In this document: positions 3,388 to 12,267 of the stretch, in pieces
Position numbering within the stretch: the first letter of the stretch is position 1
How the letters are laid out: the number at the start of each line of letters is the position of its first letter
NCBI GenBank assembly: GCA_016869975.1
Contig: VGCZ01000046.1
Location: forward strand, 1-41,925
Direction: 5' to 3'
DNA: 41,925 bases
From: Alphaproteobacteria bacterium
GTDB lineage: Bacteria > Pseudomonadota > Alphaproteobacteria > Reyranellales > Reyranellaceae
The notes under the pieces: model-generated
Databases searched by the model: none
Seen by the model: only the letters and a program-made list of their open reading frames with translations
Told to the model about the DNA's origin: nothing
Program-made: the position numbers and the translations under genes

Positions 3388-4032
3388 TCAGACGCTCAGA
3401 TTGAAGGCGATGGAGATGCGCTCCGCAGTGCCGCGATAGGGGCGCACGCCGTGCAGCAGCCAGGCCGGGAACATCACCAGCCGACCGGCGCGCGGCGGGA
3501 TCGATTCGCAGGCGCCGCCCGAGAGGCCGCCGGGTGTGGCGAAAGCGAGTTGCGGCGCGTACATCGCCGGCGCCACGCCGCGCGGATCCATGAACTCCAG
3601 TTCGCCGCCCAGCGACGGATCGGCGGCGATACCGCCATCGTCGACATAGTAGACGGCCGACCAGAACGAGCCCGGATGGGTGTGGAACTCGTTGCCGTGG
3701 CCGGCGCGGTTGATGTTGGCCCACATATTGGCCTTCCACTGCACGCGCACCGGCTTGCCGGCGCGATCCGTGGTCAGCCGGTTGGCGGCGTCGCGGCCGG
3801 CGTCGAGCAGGCGCAGCGCCGGGGCGCCGCCCCACTGATTCATGTCCCAGCTCGACTGGTAGCCGCCGAGATTGCTGTGCTGCGTGCCCGGCACCGCTTT
3901 CTCGCGCTCGATGATGACGCGGCGCAGATCGGCGTTCAGCCGCGCCGCGTCGGGCAGCTCGATCAGCACGACCGGCGTGGCGAAAAGCGGCGTCACCTCG
4001 ATGCGGGCGCCATTGGGGAGGGTGGTGTTCAT
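3388..4032 (-). CDS. 2OG-Fe(II) oxygenase, TIGR02466-like
   Basis: The product has 214 residues and matches the short putative 2OG-Fe(II) oxygenase family (TIGR02466 type) in layout. It begins with a short TPLFATPVV strand and has WKANMWANINRAGHGNEFHTHPG in the middle. H117 and H119 are candidate iron ligands in HTHPG. There is a late LLHGV (H194), and R205 in ERISIAFN would hold 2-oxoglutarate. Its substrate is unknown. Its start ATG is 10 bases after the stop of tsaD on the same strand, so the two are almost certainly co-transcribed. No membrane segment or signal peptide is visible, so it should be cytoplasmic. It differs in sequence from the P4H-like neighbour at 2154-3266, so the pair is not a recent duplication. 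Confidence 0.78.
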   Translation of the reverse strand: MNTTLPNGARIEVTPLFATPVVLIELPDAARLNADLRRVIIEREKAVPGTQHSNLGGYQSSWDMNQWGGAPALRLLDAGRDAANRLTTDRAGKPVRVQWKANMWANINRAGHGNEFHTHPGSFWSAVYYVDDGGIAADPSLGGELEFMDPRGVAPAMYAPQLAFATPGGLSGGACESIPPRAGRLVMFPAWLLHGVRPYRGTAERISIAFNLSV

Positions 4033-4042
4033 CGCCTGGAGC

Positions 4043-5134
4043 CTACACCTTCACGCCGGCGCCGACACCGGATCGGCCGATCACGGCGTGAGCGGATTCG
4101 TCGAGCGGCCAGCGCGGGCGGGGCGCGAAGTCCAAGCCGTCGCGCTGGCCGAGCAGCAGCCGCTCCAGCCCGGCCCAGGCGACCATCGCGCCGTTGTCGG
4201 TGCACAAGGCCGGTGGCGGCGCGACAAGGACCGCGTCGCGCGTGGCGGCCAGTTCGCTCAGGCGCGCGCGCAGATAGGCGTTGGCCGCCACGCCGCCGGC
4301 GACGACCAGGGGCACCGGCCGCGGGGCGTCGGCGCCCAGCCGGTCGCGGAACATCACCAGCGCGTTGGCGCAGCGATCGGCCAGCACTTCGCCCACGGTG
4401 CGCTGAAAGCAGGCCGCGAGGTCGGCGATGCCCTGCGCGTCGCTCGGCGTCAGCGACTGCGCCACCACGCGCACGGCCGTCTTCAGCCCGGAGAACGAGA
4501 AATCGCAGCCCGGCTTGCGCCACATCGGCCGCGGCAGATCGAAGCGGCGGGGATCGCCGGTTCTCGCTGCTCGCTCGACCGCGGGCCCGCCGGGGAAGCC
4601 CAGCCCGAGCAGCTTGGCGGTCTTGTCGAACGACTCGCCGACGGCGTCGTCGATGGTCGTGCCCAGGCGCGTGTAACGGCCGACGCCTTCGACCGCGAGC
4701 AGCTGGCAGTGGCCGCCGGAGACCAGCAGCAACAGGAACGGAAACGCCACCGGCTCGACCAAGCGCGCGGTCAGCGCGTGCGCCTCCAGATGGTTGACGG
4801 CGAGGAACGGCTTGCCCGTGGCCAGCGCGATCGCCTTGGCCGTGGTGACACCCACGATCACGCCACCGATCAGCCCCGGCCCGCCGGTGGCGGCCACGCC
4901 GTCGAGCTGATCGAAATCGAGGCCCGCCTCGTCCATGGCGCGTCGCACGACAGCGTCGATCACCTCGACATGGGCGCGCGCGGCGAGCTCCGGCACCACG
5001 CCGCCGAAGCGCGCATGTTCCGCCAGTTGCGCGCGTACGACGTTGGCGCGCAGCCGCCCGACCGGCGCCGAGTCGGCCTCGACCACGGCGGCGGCCGTCT
5101 CGTCGCAGCTGGTTTCGATGCCCAGGACGATCAT
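4043..5134 (-). CDS. tsaD: tRNA N6-threonylcarbamoyladenosine (t6A) transferase TsaD
   Basis: This 363-residue ASKHA-fold protein transfers the threonylcarbamoyl group to A37 of ANN-decoding tRNAs, together with TsaB and TsaE. Diagnostic motifs are all present: [10 protein letters not shown] at the N terminus, NHLEAHAL with metal ligands H115 and H119, [41 protein letters not shown] and [12 protein letters not shown]. The start at 5134 gives the canonical [11 protein letters not shown] terminus; a longer frame exists upstream but would run into the hemC region. It diverges from hemC across 73 bases, an arrangement common in alphaproteobacteria. It leads a minus-strand unit with the oxygenase at 3388-4032. 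Confidence 0.96.
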
Positions 5135-5207
5135 GGCCGCCTTGTAGCCCATCCATGCGGCACGATGGGGCTTTTCCGCCGTCGCCCGGCCCGCTACAGG
5201 GGTGGCC

Positions 5208-6125
5208 ATGAGCAAGCCCGTCCTGCGCCTGGGCACGCGCGGCAGCCCGCTGGCCCTGGTCCAGGCCCATCAAGTGCGCGACGCGCTGATCGCCGCGCAT
5301 GCGGGGCTTGCGGTCGAGATTGTCGTCATCCGTACTACCGGCGACAAGGTGCAGGACCGCCCGCTGTCGGAGATTGGCGGCAAGGGCCTGTTCACCCGCG
5401 AGATCGAGGACGGGCTGCTGGGCGGCGCGCTCGACATCGCCGTGCACAGCGCCAAGGACATGCTGCCGGTGCTGCCCGACGGGCTGATGCTGGCGGCCTT
5501 CCTGGAGCGCGAGGATCCGCGCGACGCGCTGGTCTCGCCCGGTTCCATCGCGCGTCTCGCCGACCTGCCCAAAGGCGCGACCGTCGCCACTGTGGCGCTG
5601 CGGCGCAAGGCGTTGCTGCTGCACGCGCGGCCCGACATCAAGACCGTGCCGATCCGCGGCAATGTCGACACCCGCCTGCGCAAGCTCGACGAGGGCGTGG
5701 CCCAGGCGCTCTTGCTGGCGCGCGCCGGGCTGAACCGGCTGGGCCGCGGCGCGGTCGGCATGCCGGTGCCGGTCGAGGACATGCTGCCCGCCGCCGGGCA
5801 GGGCGCGGTCTGCGTCGAATGCCGCGACGACGACGGTGCGACGCGCGAGCTGCTGTCGGCGATCAACCACGCGCCGACCGAGACCTGCGTGCGCGCCGAA
5901 TTCGCGATGCAGGCGGTGCTCGAAGGCTCCTGCCGCACGCCGATCGCCGGTTACGCGGTGCTCGGCGATGGCGGTCTGTGGCTGCGCGCGAAGATCGCGC
6001 GGCCCGACGGCTCGGCGGTGATCGACGCCGAGCGCCGTGGTGCGGCCAGCGACGCCCTGGCTTTGGGCCAGGACGCCGGCCGCGAGCTGCGCGGTCGCGC
6101 CGGCCCGGGCTTCTTCGAGGACTGA
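5208..6125 (+). CDS. hemC: porphobilinogen deaminase (hydroxymethylbilane synthase)
   Basis: The enzyme joins four porphobilinogens into hydroxymethylbilane in the cytoplasm. The 305-residue length and motifs fit: [14 protein letters not shown] at the N terminus, [50 protein letters not shown] and [13 protein letters not shown]242 in the last motif should carry the dipyrromethane cofactor. An oddity is that the usual GTSSLRR loop reads ATVALRR (residues 127-133), keeping the Thr and both Arg but losing both Ser. The ATG at 5208 gives the canonical N terminus; an in-frame GTG at 5202 is possible. hemD starts 5 bases after the stop, so the genes form an operon. Confidence 0.95.
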
Positions 6126-6130
6126 GCGCC

Positions 6131-8407
6131 ATGCGCGTGCTGGTCACCCGCCCCGAACCCGAGGCCAGTCGATTCGCCGGGGCGCTACGCGAGAAGGGCC
6201 ACGAGCCGTTGCTGGCGCCGCTGCTCAGACATCGCGCTCTGACACCACCCACCGATCTCGACGACCGACTCGAGACGGCGCAGGCGGTGCTGCTGACCAG
6301 CGTCAACGGCGCGCGCGTCCTGGCCGAAGCCACCACCAAGCGCGACCTGCGCTTGCTTGTCGTCGGCGACGCGACCGCCGAAGCGGCCGAGCGCCTGGGC
6401 TTCCATGACACGCTGTCGGCCTCCGGCGACGTCACGGCGTTGGCCGTGCTGGTGCGCAAGCAGCTTCGACCCGACGCCGGCCCGCTACTACACGCCGGCG
6501 GCGCGGTGACGGCGGGCGATCTTGTCGGGCAATTGGCTGCGGCCGGCTATGCCATTGCCCATGTCGCGCTCTACGAGACGCACCTGGCCGAGACGCTGCC
6601 GTTCGACATCGAGCGCGCGCTGGGTGAGGGATCCGTCGATGTCGTGACGCTTTTTTCGCCACGGACCGCCGAGGCGTTTGTTAAGCTCACGGCCCGGCCG
6701 GAGATCGCGCGCGGCCTCGCCAGGACGGCCGCCGTGGTGATGAGCCCGGCGGGCGCCGAGCGGGTCGCGAGCCTGCCCTGGCGGGTCGTGACGGTCGCCG
6801 AGCGGCCGACGCAAGAAGAGATGCTGCTGGCCATCGACCGCTTGACGCCTCCCCCGGCGGCAGCGGCGGACCAGGGAGAACCGGTCATGAGCGACGCGCC
6901 CCCGACAACGACGCCCCAGACACCGGCGCCCCCGACACCGGCGCAAGCGGCCGCCGAAGCGCCGCAACCCGCCGCCAAGCCAGCGAAGCCTGAGCCGACC
7001 CGCCAACCGCGGCGTGGTGGGGGCTTCGTCAGCGCCTTGGTCGTTGTCTTCGTCCCCGTCATCGCGCTGCTGATCGCCGTCGTCGTCACCTATTTCATCG
7101 ATCCCGAGGCCGTACGCAGCGCCGCCTACGCGCTGACCGGCCATTCGCCGTCGCCGCGCCCCGACGACCAGATCAAGCCATTGCAGGACCGCATCGCCGC
7201 GCTCGAGGCGCGGCCGTCCCCGGCCGATCCGTCGCCGGCGTTGCGCGAGGCGATCGACAAGCTGGAATCTCGCGTCGACGCGCAGGAGCGTCGTGCCGCG
7301 GCGATGCAGGAGTTGGCCACCAAGCTCGACGCGCTGGCACAGCGGGTTGAGACTCTAGCCAATAGGCCGGCGACACCAACGGGACCGGCGCCCGACGCCG
7401 CCCGCCTCGAAAGCGCGCTGGGTCAGGTGCGGGCGGAGCTTGCCGTTGTGAAGGCCGAGTTGCAGAGCGCACAGACCACGCTCAAGGCGCTGGCGGCGCG
7501 TCCGCCCGATGCCCCCGCCACGCCGAGCGCCGACCCCGGCGACGCGGCGCGCCAGATCGGCGCGCTGCTCGAGCGGCTCGACCGGCTGGAGAGGCGCGAC
7601 GCGCAAGCGGCCGGCGCGACCGCGAATCTCGCCGAGAAGGTCGAGGTCGTGCGCCAGCTCGCCGAGCTCGAGGCGCGGCTGCGCGCCGAGATTGCGCGCG
7701 CCACCGACAGCGGCGCGCGCGACGCCGCGGCCCAGGCGCGTGCGCGCGCCGACGCGATCGAGAAAGAGATCGCCGCGCGGCTCGACGCCGTCGCCAAGGA
7801 GACAGCGGTCAAGATCGAAGGCCTCACGCGCGACGTCGCCGCGCGCACCGACGGCGATCAGCGCGCGCTGACCAGCAGCCGCGGCGCCGCCGTGATCGGC
7901 GTCGCCGCGCGTTTGCGGCAGGCGCTGGAAGCCGGCGGGCCGTTCACCTCGAGCCTGGAGATGCTGGCGCCCTTGGCGGCGGCCGACCCGCAGATCGCTG
8001 CGATGCGCGACGAGCTCGCCAAGGTCGCGCCGACGGGCGTCGTGCCCCTCCGCGCGCTGGCCGGCGAGTTCCCTGGCGTGGCGCGCGCGGTGATCGCAGC
8101 CGACCACGCCGACGACTCGTTCTGGCAGCGCGTGCTGGGCAAGCTCAAGAGCATCGTCTCGATCCGCCGCGTCGGCGAGAACACCAAGGGCATGGAGCCC
8201 GACGCCATCTTGGCGCGCGCCGAGGCGGCGGTGAACGCCGGCGATCTCGGTCGCGCCGTGGGTGAGGTGAAGCAGCTGAGCGGCGCGGCCGCGGCGCCGG
8301 CCACTACCTGGCTGATCAACGCCGAGGCGCATCTGGCGGCGCAGCGCGTCGTCGATCGCCTGAGCCTGCACGGCGTCGGCCTGCTGTCGCGCGGCACCGC
8401 GAAATGA
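6131..8407 (+). CDS. hemD: uroporphyrinogen-III synthase fused in frame to a Mic60/mitofilin-like membrane protein
   Basis: One frame of 758 residues runs without a stop. Residues 1-240 are HemD-like (MRVLVTRPEPEASRFAGAL, VLLTSVNGARVL, YETHLAETLP, TLFSPRTAEAFVKL, AVVMSPAGAERV) and would cyclise hydroxymethylbilane to uroporphyrinogen III. Residues 253-758 form the alphaproteobacterial mitofilin/COG4223 type. They start with a Pro/Ala-rich stretch and one membrane helix (about residues 299-323). A long Ala/Glu/Arg coiled coil follows, and then a mitofilin-like end (FTSSLEMLAPLAAADP, FWQRVLGKLKSIVSIRR, GMEPDAILARAEAAVNAGDL). In most relatives these are two genes. Here an internal ATG at 6887 with a good Shine-Dalgarno could also yield a separate 506-residue mitofilin. 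The stop overlaps the hemY start (ATGA). Confidence 0.85.
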   Translation: MRVLVTRPEPEASRFAGALREKGHEPLLAPLLRHRALTPPTDLDDRLETAQAVLLTSVNGARVLAEATTKRDLRLLVVGDATAEAAERLGFHDTLSASGDVTALAVLVRKQLRPDAGPLLHAGGAVTAGDLVGQLAAAGYAIAHVALYETHLAETLPFDIERALGEGSVDVVTLFSPRTAEAFVKLTARPEIARGLARTAAVVMSPAGAERVASLPWRVVTVAERPTQEEMLLAIDRLTPPPAAAADQGEPVMSDAPPTTTPQTPAPPTPAQAAAEAPQPAAKPAKPEPTRQPRRGGGFVSALVVVFVPVIALLIAVVVTYFIDPEAVRSAAYALTGHSPSPRPDDQIKPLQDRIAALEARPSPADPSPALREAIDKLESRVDAQERRAAAMQELATKLDALAQRVETLANRPATPTGPAPDAARLESALGQVRAELAVVKAELQSAQTTLKALAARPPDAPATPSADPGDAARQIGALLERLDRLERRDAQAAGATANLAEKVEVVRQLAELEARLRAEIARATDSGARDAAAQARARADAIEKEIAARLDAVAKETAVKIEGLTRDVAARTDGDQRALTSSRGAAVIGVAARLRQALEAGGPFTSSLEMLAPLAAADPQIAAMRDELAKVAPTGVVPLRALAGEFPGVARAVIAADHADDSFWQRVLGKLKSIVSIRRVGENTKGMEPDAILARAEAAVNAGDLGRAVGEVKQLSGAAAAPATTWLINAEAHLAAQRVVDRLSLHGVGLLSRGTAK
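6873..6889 (+). promoter_or_regulatory. internal Shine-Dalgarno and ATG at the hemD/mitofilin junction
   Basis: AGGGAGAA lies 7 bases before the ATG at 6887, exactly where the mitofilin-like part begins (MSDAPP). No stop codon precedes it in the hemD frame, so ribosomes may either read through as a fusion or restart here. If used, it gives a protein covering 6887-8407. Confidence 0.55.
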
Positions 8408-9780
8408 CCACCCTTCGTACGCTGCTGTGGTTCGCGCTGATCGCCGCGGCGATGGTCGCCGCGGTGTGGCTGGCCGAGCGGCCGGGCGACGTCACCATCG
8501 AGTGGCATGGCTGGCGCATGGACACCAGCGTCGGCGTGCTGTTGCTCGCGGTGGCGATGATCGCCGCGCTCTGCACCACGCTCTACGGCGTGGCGCGCTG
8601 GCTGCGCCATGCGCCCGGCTCGCTGATCGGCAGCTGGGGCGAAGGCCGCCGGCGCAAGGGTTATCGGGCGCTGAGCCAGGGTATGGTCGCGGTCGCCGCC
8701 GGCGATTCCGGCGAGGCGCAGAAGCTGGCGCGGCAGGCCGAGAAGCTGCTCGACGAGCCGGCGCTGACCCTGCTGCTCTCGGCGCAGGCCGCCCAGCTCG
8801 CTGGCGACCGCGAGGCGGCGCGGCGCTACTTCAACGAGATGCTCGAGGACGAGGAGCTCGCCTTTCTCGGCCTGCGCGGCCTCCTGATGCAGGCGCTGCG
8901 CGATGGCGATCCGACCAAGGCGCTGGGCTACGCCGAGCGCGCCTTCGCGCTGCGCCCCGACACGCCGTGGGTGGTGCGCAGCCTGTTCGACATGCAGGCG
9001 CGCGCCGGCAAGTGGCTCGACGCGCAGAAAACCTTGCAGTCGGGATTGAAGAGCCGACTGGTCGACGCCGAGCGCGGCCGCACGCTCGACGCGCTCTTGC
9101 TGGTCGAGCGCAGCCGCGCCGCCGAACGCTCGGGCGGCGATATGGACGCGATGGAGAACGCCAAGGCGGCCTACGGCCTGGCGCCGGAGCGTGTGCCCGT
9201 CGCCTATCGCTACGCCGAGCTGCTACTCAAACGCGACGAGGCACGCAAGGCGACCAGGGCGATCGAGAAGGCCTGGGCGGTGGCGCCGCATCCCGACCTG
9301 GCGCAGCTCTATCTTTCGGCGCTGGGCGAGAAGGATCCGGTCAAGCGCGTGCAGGCGCTGACTCGGCTGACCGCGTCCAATCCCGACGAATTGGAAAGCC
9401 ATGTCGCGCTGGCGCGCGAGTGCCTGGAAGCCAAGCTCTGGGGCGAGGCGCGGCGCCACCTCACGGCGGCCGGCGGCAAGCGGCCCGTGGTGCGCGTCTG
9501 CCGACTGATGGCCGATCTGGAGGAAGCCGAGTTCGCCGACGGCGAGAAGGTACGTCACTGGCTGGCGAGGGCCGCCGATGCGCCGGGCGATCGGCAATGG
9601 CGCTGCACCGCGTGCGGCGCGGTGCACGAGCGCTGGCAGGCGGTGTGCGATTCCTGTGGCGCGTTCGGCACCTCGCAATGGCGCGCACCGGACCCGGTGG
9701 CGGGCGAGGTGACCCGCGACGAGCCGCCGGGCAAGGCGGTGATCGTTGCTCCCGCCGAGATCCTGCCGCCGGAAAGGTGA
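8404..9780 (+). CDS. hemY: HemY-like TPR membrane protein with C-terminal zinc ribbon
   Basis: The product has 458 residues. Two N-terminal membrane helices (about residues 5-24 and 41-65) flank a short periplasmic loop, followed by a HemY_N-type segment (LIGSWGEGRRRKGYRALSQGM) and tetratricopeptide-like helices to about residue 390. The C terminus has Cys401, Cys404, Cys415 and Cys418 in a CxxC-x10-CxxC arrangement, a rubredoxin-like zinc ribbon. HemY proteins are linked to late tetrapyrrole synthesis by gene position; their biochemical role is not settled. In alphaproteobacteria they sit beside the mitofilin gene, as here, with the ATG overlapping the preceding TGA (8404-8407). This HemY is not the oxygen-dependent protoporphyrinogen oxidase of Gram-positives that shares the name. 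Confidence 0.85.
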   Translation: MTTLRTLLWFALIAAAMVAAVWLAERPGDVTIEWHGWRMDTSVGVLLLAVAMIAALCTTLYGVARWLRHAPGSLIGSWGEGRRRKGYRALSQGMVAVAAGDSGEAQKLARQAEKLLDEPALTLLLSAQAAQLAGDREAARRYFNEMLEDEELAFLGLRGLLMQALRDGDPTKALGYAERAFALRPDTPWVVRSLFDMQARAGKWLDAQKTLQSGLKSRLVDAERGRTLDALLLVERSRAAERSGGDMDAMENAKAAYGLAPERVPVAYRYAELLLKRDEARKATRAIEKAWAVAPHPDLAQLYLSALGEKDPVKRVQALTRLTASNPDELESHVALARECLEAKLWGEARRHLTAAGGKRPVVRVCRLMADLEEAEFADGEKVRHWLARAADAPGDRQWRCTACGAVHERWQAVCDSCGAFGTSQWRAPDPVAGEVTRDEPPGKAVIVAPAEILPPER

Positions 9781-9852: not shown

Positions 9853-12267
9853 TCAAGCGGGCGGCGCGGGCACCGCCGCCGGCGCGGTGACGGCGATGGC
9901 GATGCCGGCGGCGGCGAGGTTGTCGAGCACGGCGTGGTTGAGCTGGGTGCGCGCCACCGGCGTCGTGGCGATGTTGCGCAGGAAGCAGCGCAGCTCCCAT
10001 TCCAGGCCGTTGGGCGCGATCCTGGCGAACACCGTGAACGGCTTGGGCGTGGTCGACACCAGCGGGTTGTCGGTTGCCGCCTTCAAGAGCGCCGCCTCGA
10101 CCTTGGCGAGGTCGCTGCCGTGCACGACGGTGATCGCGATGTCGACGCGCGACATGTTGTCGGCGTAAGTCCAGTTGATCACCGCCGTCTGCAGGAACTC
10201 CGAGTTGGGCACGATCACCGAGGCGCGCGAAGACGTCTGCAGCTCCGTGGCGCGGATATTGATGCGCTTCACCGAGCCCTCGTGACGGCCCACCGTCACC
10301 CAGTCGCCGACCTTGATCGGCCGCTCGACCAGCAGGATGATTCCCGAGATCGTGTTGTTGGCGATGCCCTGCAGGCCGAGGCCGATACCGACGGAAAGCG
10401 CGCCGACGATGAGCGCGAGGTTGGAGAAGTCGACGCCCAGCGCCGTGATGCCGAGCAGCGCCGCGGCGATGATGCCGACATAGTTCAAGCCCGCGTCGAT
10501 GGTGTACTGGACCGTCTGGTTGATCTCCATCGACGGCAGCACGCGCTCGCGCAGGGCGCGGCGCAGCAACTGCAGCGCCGCCAGCGCCACCACGAAGACG
10601 ATGACGCCGATCAGGATGGCGACCAGCGAGATGGTGTGGCCGCCGACCTTCAGGCCGGTGAGCAGGCGCCACAGCCAGTCCATGATGTCGTCCGACGGCA
10701 CGCCCCAGATCGCCGGCAGCACGACCGAGAGCGCCGCGAGCAAGGTCAGGTCGAGCACCATCAGCAACAGCAGCCGGCCCCTCAGCGGCGCGTCGGGCGC
10801 CAGCCCCATCGCCTGGCGCATCCAGCGGCCGCTCGGCGTGTCCGGGGCCGAGGCGGTCTCGACCAGGTCGTGCACCGCCTGACGCACAACCATGGCAGCG
10901 GCGATGGCGATCAGGCTGAACAGCAGCGAGTCGTAGAGATGGCCGGCGAGGTTGCCATAGCCCAGCACCGCGGCGCCCAGCGCCAAGAGCGCGATCAGCG
11001 TGATCAGGTGCCGGCCGGCCGCCCAGACGCGGCCCCCCAGCGGACGGTGCGAGCCATCCTCATCGGCCTGGCCTCGGCTCCACGCCTCGGCGCGAAACAC
11101 CGGGATGGTGAGCGGCACGGCGATGGCGACTAAGAGCAGGATCAGCAGCGCCTCGAGTGCTGGGCGGTCGGGATAGGGCGGCGCCAGGAAGGCGTAGATC
11201 GAGATCAGGATCGCGTAGCCCCACGCCAGCCGCCGCACGCGGTGTGAGAGCATGCGCGCGGCGTTGTCGTCGAAGGGCGCGATGCGCCACACCGGCCTGA
11301 ACGGCGCCAGCGCCGATTCGCCGATGCCCGAGGCGAGCAACGCGATAGCCAGGCCGATTGCGCTCTTGGTGACGAACCAGGTCGTCGCCGCGCCGGGATT
11401 GCCGCTGCGGAACACCACCATCAGGAAGAGCAACGCCAGCACCGGGGCGGCGACCGAACCCACGCCGTCGAGTGCCGCGGCGACGACGCGCTGGCGATAG
11501 GTCGGCTCGGCGATGCCGCTGTCGCGGCCATAGCGTTGGCGCAAGCGGCGGATCGACCACCACAAGCCGACCGTGACGAAGGCGCCGATCAGGGCGACCG
11601 GCGCCGACGACAACGGACCGCCCAGCGAGTCGTTGGTGAACCACATCGTGGCCGCCGCGCGCTGCTGCACCAAGACGTCGCCGAGGTCGACCCAGGCCTG
11701 CTGCCACGTCGCCGGCGCGAAGGGCGAGGGCGTCTTGCGCAGCAGGGTGCGCATGAAGGTCTCGCCACGCAGGCGGCCGAGTTGCTGGATCAGGATTTCG
11801 GCGCGCGCGCCGGCCAGCTCGGCCTGCCGCACGCGGCCCTCGATCAGCGCCACCTGCGCGCGCAGCCGCTCGCGTTCCTGCCGTACGTCGTCGGGCTCGT
11901 CAGCGCGCGCCTCGCGCGGCTTGCGCTCGCCCGGCTTGGCGTCGGGCGGCGCCGCCGGCTCGAGCTTGCCCAGCAGGGTGCGCAGCGAGACCAGCTCCTC
12001 GCGCGCCGCCGCCGCCGCGCCGGCCGCCGAATCGCGCACCTCGATCGCCTCGAGCCGAAGCTGCTCGATCTCGGCCGGCACCAGGTTGGGCCGCGTCGCG
12101 ACGTCGGCGATGCGATCAAGCGTGCGCGTCCAGCCGGCCAGCATGACCGTGAACGGCCGCTCCAACGCGCCGGGCTGCGGCGCTTGCGCCGCGACGCCGC
12201 TCGCGACCGCACAGAGCGCCACGACCATCAGCAACAGGTGCCGCGCGGCGAGGGTCAAGGTGTCCAT
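9853..12267 (-). CDS. DUF3772-type mechanosensitive (MscS-family) channel
   Basis: This 804-residue inner-membrane protein starts with a signal peptide (about residues 1-27). A periplasmic Ala/Glu/Arg-rich coiled-coil region follows, with a DUF3772-like stretch around TPSFAPATWQQAWVDLGDVLVQQR. Many transmembrane helices follow. The C-terminal third is the MscS core: the pore-lining helix rich in Gly/Ala (LALIVGALSVGIGLGLQGIANN), then the beta domain (IKVGDWVTVGRHEGSVKRINIRATEL) and VIVPNSEFLQTAVINWT. Such channels open on membrane tension and release solutes during hypo-osmotic shock. The gene is downstream of the TMEM43-like gene on the same strand, with a hairpin between them. Confidence 0.88.
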   Translation of the reverse strand: MDTLTLAARHLLLMVVALCAVASGVAAQAPQPGALERPFTVMLAGWTRTLDRIADVATRPNLVPAEIEQLRLEAIEVRDSAAGAAAAAREELVSLRTLLGKLEPAAPPDAKPGERKPREARADEPDDVRQERERLRAQVALIEGRVRQAELAGARAEILIQQLGRLRGETFMRTLLRKTPSPFAPATWQQAWVDLGDVLVQQRAAATMWFTNDSLGGPLSSAPVALIGAFVTVGLWWSIRRLRQRYGRDSGIAEPTYRQRVVAAALDGVGSVAAPVLALLFLMVVFRSGNPGAATTWFVTKSAIGLAIALLASGIGESALAPFRPVWRIAPFDDNAARMLSHRVRRLAWGYAILISIYAFLAPPYPDRPALEALLILLLVAIAVPLTIPVFRAEAWSRGQADEDGSHRPLGGRVWAAGRHLITLIALLALGAAVLGYGNLAGHLYDSLLFSLIAIAAAMVVRQAVHDLVETASAPDTPSGRWMRQAMGLAPDAPLRGRLLLLMVLDLTLLAALSVVLPAIWGVPSDDIMDWLWRLLTGLKVGGHTISLVAILIGVIVFVVALAALQLLRRALRERVLPSMEINQTVQYTIDAGLNYVGIIAAALLGITALGVDFSNLALIVGALSVGIGLGLQGIANNTISGIILLVERPIKVGDWVTVGRHEGSVKRINIRATELQTSSRASVIVPNSEFLQTAVINWTYADNMSRVDIAITVVHGSDLAKVEAALLKAATDNPLVSTTPKPFTVFARIAPNGLEWELRCFLRNIATTPVARTQLNHAVLDNLAAAGIAIAVTAPAAVPAPPA

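Follow-up and report, generated by a model that had tools for sequence, protein, structure and literature searches.

A family-wide hemD::mic60 gene fusion with a probable nested start for free Mic60 in Reyranellaceae

In the alphaproteobacterial family Reyranellaceae, hemD, which encodes uroporphyrinogen-III synthase, is joined to mic60 in one open frame, and the best explanation of the data, held with a probability of about 0.78, is a fixed fusion with a nested start, by which HemD would always be made as a membrane-tethered HemD-Mic60 protein and free Mic60 would be made in addition. The fused frame, its persistence throughout the family, the single HemD and the selection on the internal initiation site can all be read from the sequences themselves. 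The further steps of the mechanism are proposed as follows. Translation from position 6131 would yield a chain of HemD, linker, transmembrane helix, coiled coil and mitofilin domain, and uroporphyrinogen-III synthase would be tethered to the inner membrane at its cytoplasmic face; because HemD lacks a stop of its own and the searches gave no further HemD gene, this would apply to all HemD. Ribosomes entering at an embedded Shine-Dalgarno would start at the ATG at 6887 and produce free Mic60. Both proteins would then accumulate, and free Mic60 would oligomerise with HemD-Mic60, so that the ratio of starts would set the HemD load per Mic60 assembly. Since Mic60 has been reported to form homotetramers (PMC12631773), such a co-assembly of free and fused Mic60 could occur.

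The fused gene and its products

The window is the whole stretch of DNA that was analysed, 41,925 nucleotides of a draft genome of 96 contigs. Its features that matter here are the following.

4043-5236, minus strand: tsaD, divergent, overlapping the 5′ end of hemC (PF00814)
5202-6125, plus strand: hemC, porphobilinogen deaminase (PF01379, PF03900); GTG start at 5202, ATG possible at 5208
6131-8407, plus strand: hemD::mic60 single frame, 758 aa, about 78 kDa, stop included
6170-6826, plus strand: HemD domain, uroporphyrinogen-III synthase (PF02602, HEM4; residues 14-232, E 3.5e-40)
6842-6886, plus strand: HemD-Mic60 junction or linker upstream of the internal start; of variable length and always in frame in relatives
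6873-6879, plus strand: embedded Shine-Dalgarno AGGGAGA, with a GGA codon at 6875-6877
6887-8407, plus strand: nested in-frame start ATG AGC GAC (MSD) and predicted free Mic60 product, 506 aa, about 52 kDa
7025-7099, plus strand: transmembrane helix, residues 299-323, from the model helix and the hydrophobic sequence; predicted N-in, C-out
7163-7900, plus strand: coiled-coil region; seen as long helices 344-601 of the model and in family-profile matches to coiled-coil chains
7751-8362, plus strand: mitofilin domain of Mic60 (PF09731, residues 541-744)
8404-9780, plus strand: hemY (PF07219); its ATG overlaps the mic60 stop (ATGA)

An earlier note on this DNA had read hemD and mic60 as a single open frame, and the translation bears this out: the 758 codons from 6131 to 8407 run without interruption to one terminal TGA, no stop lies between 6840 and 6886, and both HEM4 and Mitofilin are found in the one frame, as they are family-wide. 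The match to PF02602 reaches 138 bits against a curated cut-off of 27.5, and that to PF09731 (E 1.9e-10) also exceeds its gathering score. Because the DNA is G+C-rich, the open frame alone is weak evidence; indeed, the hemD frame stays open for 1511 codons from position 3872, across hemC. A chance open frame is possible in one genome, and the weight therefore rests on the relatives described below, whose junctions reject that explanation for the family.

A single HEM4 gene and a single Mitofilin gene were found in the window's genome, and both are the fused gene, which is thus the only uroporphyrinogen-III synthase found there. The search of this genome and of the genomes of the order for HEM4 revealed no second, free HemD gene: each genome of the order with a HEM4 match above the cut-off carries exactly one, in a frame longer than 600 codons except for three short or broken frames. 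Since a ferrochelatase gene is also present in the window's genome, this sole HEM4 implies that the tethered HemD must work as an enzyme and is presumably active.

An AlphaFold model built from 51 family sequences comprises a confident HemD domain (residues 1-240, pLDDT mostly above 90), a disordered stretch at about 245-298, the helix at 299-323, coiled-coil helices and a C-terminal mitofilin bundle. The first part has the HemD fold (TM by target 0.77-0.79 to Pseudomonas HemD 4es6/3re1, Foldseek), and the family profile retrieves the MIC60 structure 7pv1 (E 7.3e-6); the second part displays the alphaproteobacterial Mic60 layout of an N-terminal transmembrane helix, a coiled coil and a C-terminal mitofilin domain. 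Basic residues lie on the N side of the membrane helix, and R294, R295, G296 and G298 are conserved in the alignment. By the positive-inside rule, HemD would be cytoplasmic and the coiled coil and mitofilin part periplasmic. The topology proposed earlier, with HemD held at the inner membrane and the coiled coil in the periplasm, fits this model with its one membrane helix. In other alphaproteobacteria, a role of Mic60 in membrane bending and intracytoplasmic membranes has been shown, according to work cited in PMC12136173.

Persistence of the fusion in the family

The earlier note had asked whether relatives also lack the hemD stop, and it is absent at the junction in every one of the 64 non-redundant loci examined from the family (Reyranella, Enhydrobacter, Vineibacter and their relatives). 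The named relatives covered are Reyranella, Enhydrobacter aerosaccus ATCC 27094, Vineibacter terrae and strain SYSU D60007. The same fused frame occurs in a genus-mate that is 80% identical (G003) and in the family genera g2-g5; several of the genomes are single-contig assemblies or come from isolates, namely G005, G022, G023, Reyranella massiliensis 521, E. aerosaccus ATCC 27094, V. terrae, Reyranella soli and R. aquatilis. The closest relative beyond the family (G037, locus L111) keeps the genes separate: hemD ends in a TGA and the mic60 ATG follows 78 bases on, in the same frame.

The internal Met was scored in 62 of the 64 loci, L096 being cut by a contig end and L110 being the other, which does show MSD. 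The distance from the HemD start to this Met ranges from 245 to 262 residues in 13 length classes, all in frame, which points to many indels, every one of which kept the frame. At linker codons -15 to -7, counted from the internal ATG, third positions vary at roughly double the rate of first and second positions, as in coding sequence. In the last 12 linker codons, an average of 3.3 single changes per locus would create a stop, yet stops are seen in 0 of 62. By a rough neutral estimate, about 16 stops should have arisen over the tree, where none is seen (P 1e-7); the estimate uses a saturated third-position tree, and the expectation falls to 4.7 at a tree length of 12 (P 0.009) and loses significance at a length of 5 (P 0.14). 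These comparisons confirm that the gene fusion is real and family-wide and, judged from the linker, has apparently been maintained by selection.

In two draft Reyranella-like genomes (L020, L021), a frameshift or a TAG lies inside the Mic60 part, as errors or in decaying copies. They were rejected as counter-examples to the fusion, the breaks being within Mic60 and not at the junction.

The internal start at position 6887

The ATG at 6887 is codon 253 of the fused frame and lies in frame, with a gap of 8 nt from GGAG to ATG. The corresponding Met is invariant in all 62 junctions (M253 in the 51 aligned proteins) and is always followed by Ser/Thr and Asp/Glu. GGA is the core of the Shine-Dalgarno. 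Where a Gly codon stands at -6 to -3, GGA is used 50 times out of 52, as against 113 of 2464 (4.6%) elsewhere in the same genes, whose background Gly usage is 76% GGC (P 1.6e-60, calculated ignoring kinship). Codons -6 to -1 are under little amino-acid constraint, and their pairwise synonymous divergence is 0.167, compared with 0.43-0.47 in HemD. Third-position G+C drops to 0.16-0.28 at codons -6 to -4 and to 0.42-0.47 at +3 to +6, against a background of 0.86; such a dip is absent at about 209 control internal Met codons, and the upstream dip is weaker yet present in eight loci outside the main genus (0.50 vs 0.82, P 0.0006).

The Shine-Dalgarno itself is less impressive. The earlier note had credited the internal ATG with a good one; the ATG proves invariant and the GGA conserved, but the window's own Shine-Dalgarno is only moderate, and a few members, such as L049, L066 and L074, display no clear one. 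An unbiased duplex-energy test, which takes the best start per linker, is not significant in the family (P 0.2), and the case for the internal start consequently rests on conservation and not on Shine-Dalgarno strength. A conserved start codon accompanied by a Shine-Dalgarno under nucleotide-level selection makes the ATG at 6887 a probable working start, hence two probable products. The dual products that had been suggested earlier thus gain support from codon-level conservation, in the form of the invariant Met, the GGA, the synonymous suppression and the G+C dip.

Alternative explanations

The ATG could be a hardly used remnant inherited from the old Mic60 start, with nearly all Mic60 carrying HemD. 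The duplex-energy result in the family agrees with this, as do the fused loci outside the family, about a fifth of which lack a convincing start, so that Mic60 probably works with HemD attached. A remnant, however, would not preserve the invariant Met, the near-constant GGA (50 of 52), the synonymous suppression and the G+C dip, and these features of the start site are retained among proteins down to about 36-42% identity, which renders this alternative unlikely. Slightly less probable still is that the fusion is translated and then cleaved into a separate soluble HemD and a membrane Mic60, the missing stop being neutral. A protease could free HemD at the linker, which is long, disordered and variable in length, as a cleavage site could be, but the alignment shows no conserved cleavage motif, and a neutral loss of the stop should have been reversed in some of the 62 lineages, given about three single changes per linker that would suffice, whereas it is reversed in none.

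It is also conceivable, the window's genome being a draft, that a sequencing or assembly error erased a stop or frame break that separated two ordinary genes. The chance of this is negligible, as the same frame recurs in G003 and in dozens of species sequenced independently, single-contig genomes and isolates included, and an assembly or stop-codon error was rejected on the strength of these relatives. The fixed fusion with a nested start remains the preferred reading.

Fusions elsewhere in Alphaproteobacteria

Fused frames also occur in many other alphaproteobacterial families. Among 100 loci taken from a search of the class, 35 are fused, 60 are separate and 5 are without a recognisable Mic60; the resulting share of 35 in 95 comes from a hand-picked sample and is not an unbiased frequency. 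The view that the fusion of the two genes is an oddity does not hold against these 35 of 95 sampled loci, nor against the HemD-HemX fusions that are a named NCBI family. A tree of HemD and mitofilin requires at least 19 changes between the fused and separate states, of which strongly supported branches alone demand at least 4, and the fusion appears to have been gained or lost several times, in a direction that cannot be read from the tree. In lineages with separate genes, hemD and mic60 show no same-frame bias (22 of 60).

Outside the family, an in-frame start followed by [STA][DE] lies within 35 codons of HemD in 24 of 43 fused loci. Control stretches contain one in 66 of 609 (P 1e-11). Such an excess would be expected if lineages often kept the old Mic60 start. 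The duplex-energy test is weak there (Fisher P 0.003), with 9 of 43 loci below 0.05. The roughly one fifth of these fused loci that have no convincing internal start (L121, L123, L124, L135, L165, L179, L188, L201) probably make the fusion only.

Some of the fused proteins contain a further segment. In L137, residues 339-390, between HemD and the membrane helix, match the carph-isopro helix-turn-helix segment (NF046037, E 1.2e-15), and a similar segment was judged by eye to be present in L204, L209, L155, L176-L178, L184 and L185. The L137-type architecture, HemD-HTH-TM-mitofilin, gives a haem enzyme fusion a DNA-binding-like domain held at the membrane.

Comparison with known systems

An alphaproteobacterial operon hemC-hemD-IMMP(mitofilin)-hemY that lies head to head with tsaD has been described (PMC7641849). 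Its gene order and divergent tsaD match the window and genera g2 and g4, but its genes are separate, while hemD and mic60 form one frame with a nested start here.

In other Proteobacteria, NCBIfam NF005411 (PRK06975) designates a fused uroporphyrinogen-III synthase HemD/membrane protein HemX. In both cases an N-terminal HemD is joined to a single-span membrane protein with a coiled coil, and the fusion partner derives from the gene that ordinarily comes next in the hem operon. NF005411 has HemX (PF04375) as this partner, the window a mitofilin-domain Mic60. NF005411 (cut-off 414 bits) is not among the matches of the window's fused protein at E up to 1, and HemX (PF04375) has no match in the window's genome. 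The hemD::mic60 gene with its nested start is a variant of a kind of fusion, HemD with a membrane protein, that already has a name in other Proteobacteria. Four HemD-HemX fusions were recovered, L250, which matches NF005411 above its cut-off, L251, and L252 and L254, which are more distant relatives; G389 was rejected as such a fusion, its genes not being fused. At the HemD-HemX junction of L250, an in-frame ATG (MTDAPQ) at residue 291 stands behind GAGGAAAAACAA, a GAGGA run, which suggests that the named HemD-HemX fusions may also carry nested starts.

An example of one gene with two such products is the phage endolysin LysIME-EF1, which gives rise to a full-length protein and, via an internal ribosome-binding site, to a C-terminal fragment, in a 1:3 complex (PMC7098653). 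The two cases would share an in-frame internal start within a linker and an extra C-terminal oligomerising part; they differ in that there is no homology between them, and in that the endolysin products and complex are proven while both products are inferred here.

According to PMC9133952, Dietz et al. (2021) found that Mic60 interacts with ferrochelatase in mitochondria and supports it. As far as that report goes, this lends independent support to a link between Mic60 and haem synthesis, through another enzyme: Mic60 is physically and functionally tied to haem synthesis in both systems, but the mitochondrial one concerns ferrochelatase, a non-covalent contact and eukaryotes.

Implications

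The fusion fixes a soluble enzyme of the haem pathway to the forerunner of a mitochondrial protein that supports ferrochelatase and forms crista junctions, in a family related to the ancestor of mitochondria. The recurrence of HemD-Mic60 fusions in Alphaproteobacteria and of HemD-HemX fusions in other Proteobacteria argues that HemD works close to these membrane proteins also in genomes that keep the genes apart, which turns the unexplained link between mic60 and the hem operon into a testable statement on where tetrapyrroles are made. The nested start, for its part, offers a clean case in which one bacterial gene has apparently been selected to yield both a fusion and its C-terminal part. A broader proposal is tentative and on balance doubtful: mixed oligomers of free Mic60 and HemD-Mic60, in a ratio set by the nested start, might hold the uroporphyrinogen-III step at inner-membrane Mic60 sites and couple haem synthesis directly to bacterial membrane organisation, and the MICOS-haem link would descend from this alphaproteobacterial coupling.

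Gene neighbourhood

hemY lies downstream of the fused gene in all 18 tested loci of at least 9 kb. Upstream, hemC is retained in genera g2 and g4, while both hemC and tsaD are absent within 4 kb in the tested Reyranella-type loci (e.g., L063, L068, L075), where hemY stays; the HemD-Mic60 fusion thus persists where hemC has left the cluster. The C-terminal end of HemY in the window (residues about 397-424) contains a CxxC...CxxC zinc-ribbon-like segment (WRCTACGAVHERWQAVCDSCGAFGTSQW) with a weak RadA/Sms match (E 0.028). Two 2OG-Fe(II) oxygenase genes (PF13640, PF13759; 2154-3266 and 3388-4032, minus strand) lie beside tsaD, and a large mechanosensitive channel gene (PF00924, DUF3772; 9853-12267, minus strand) converges on hemY.
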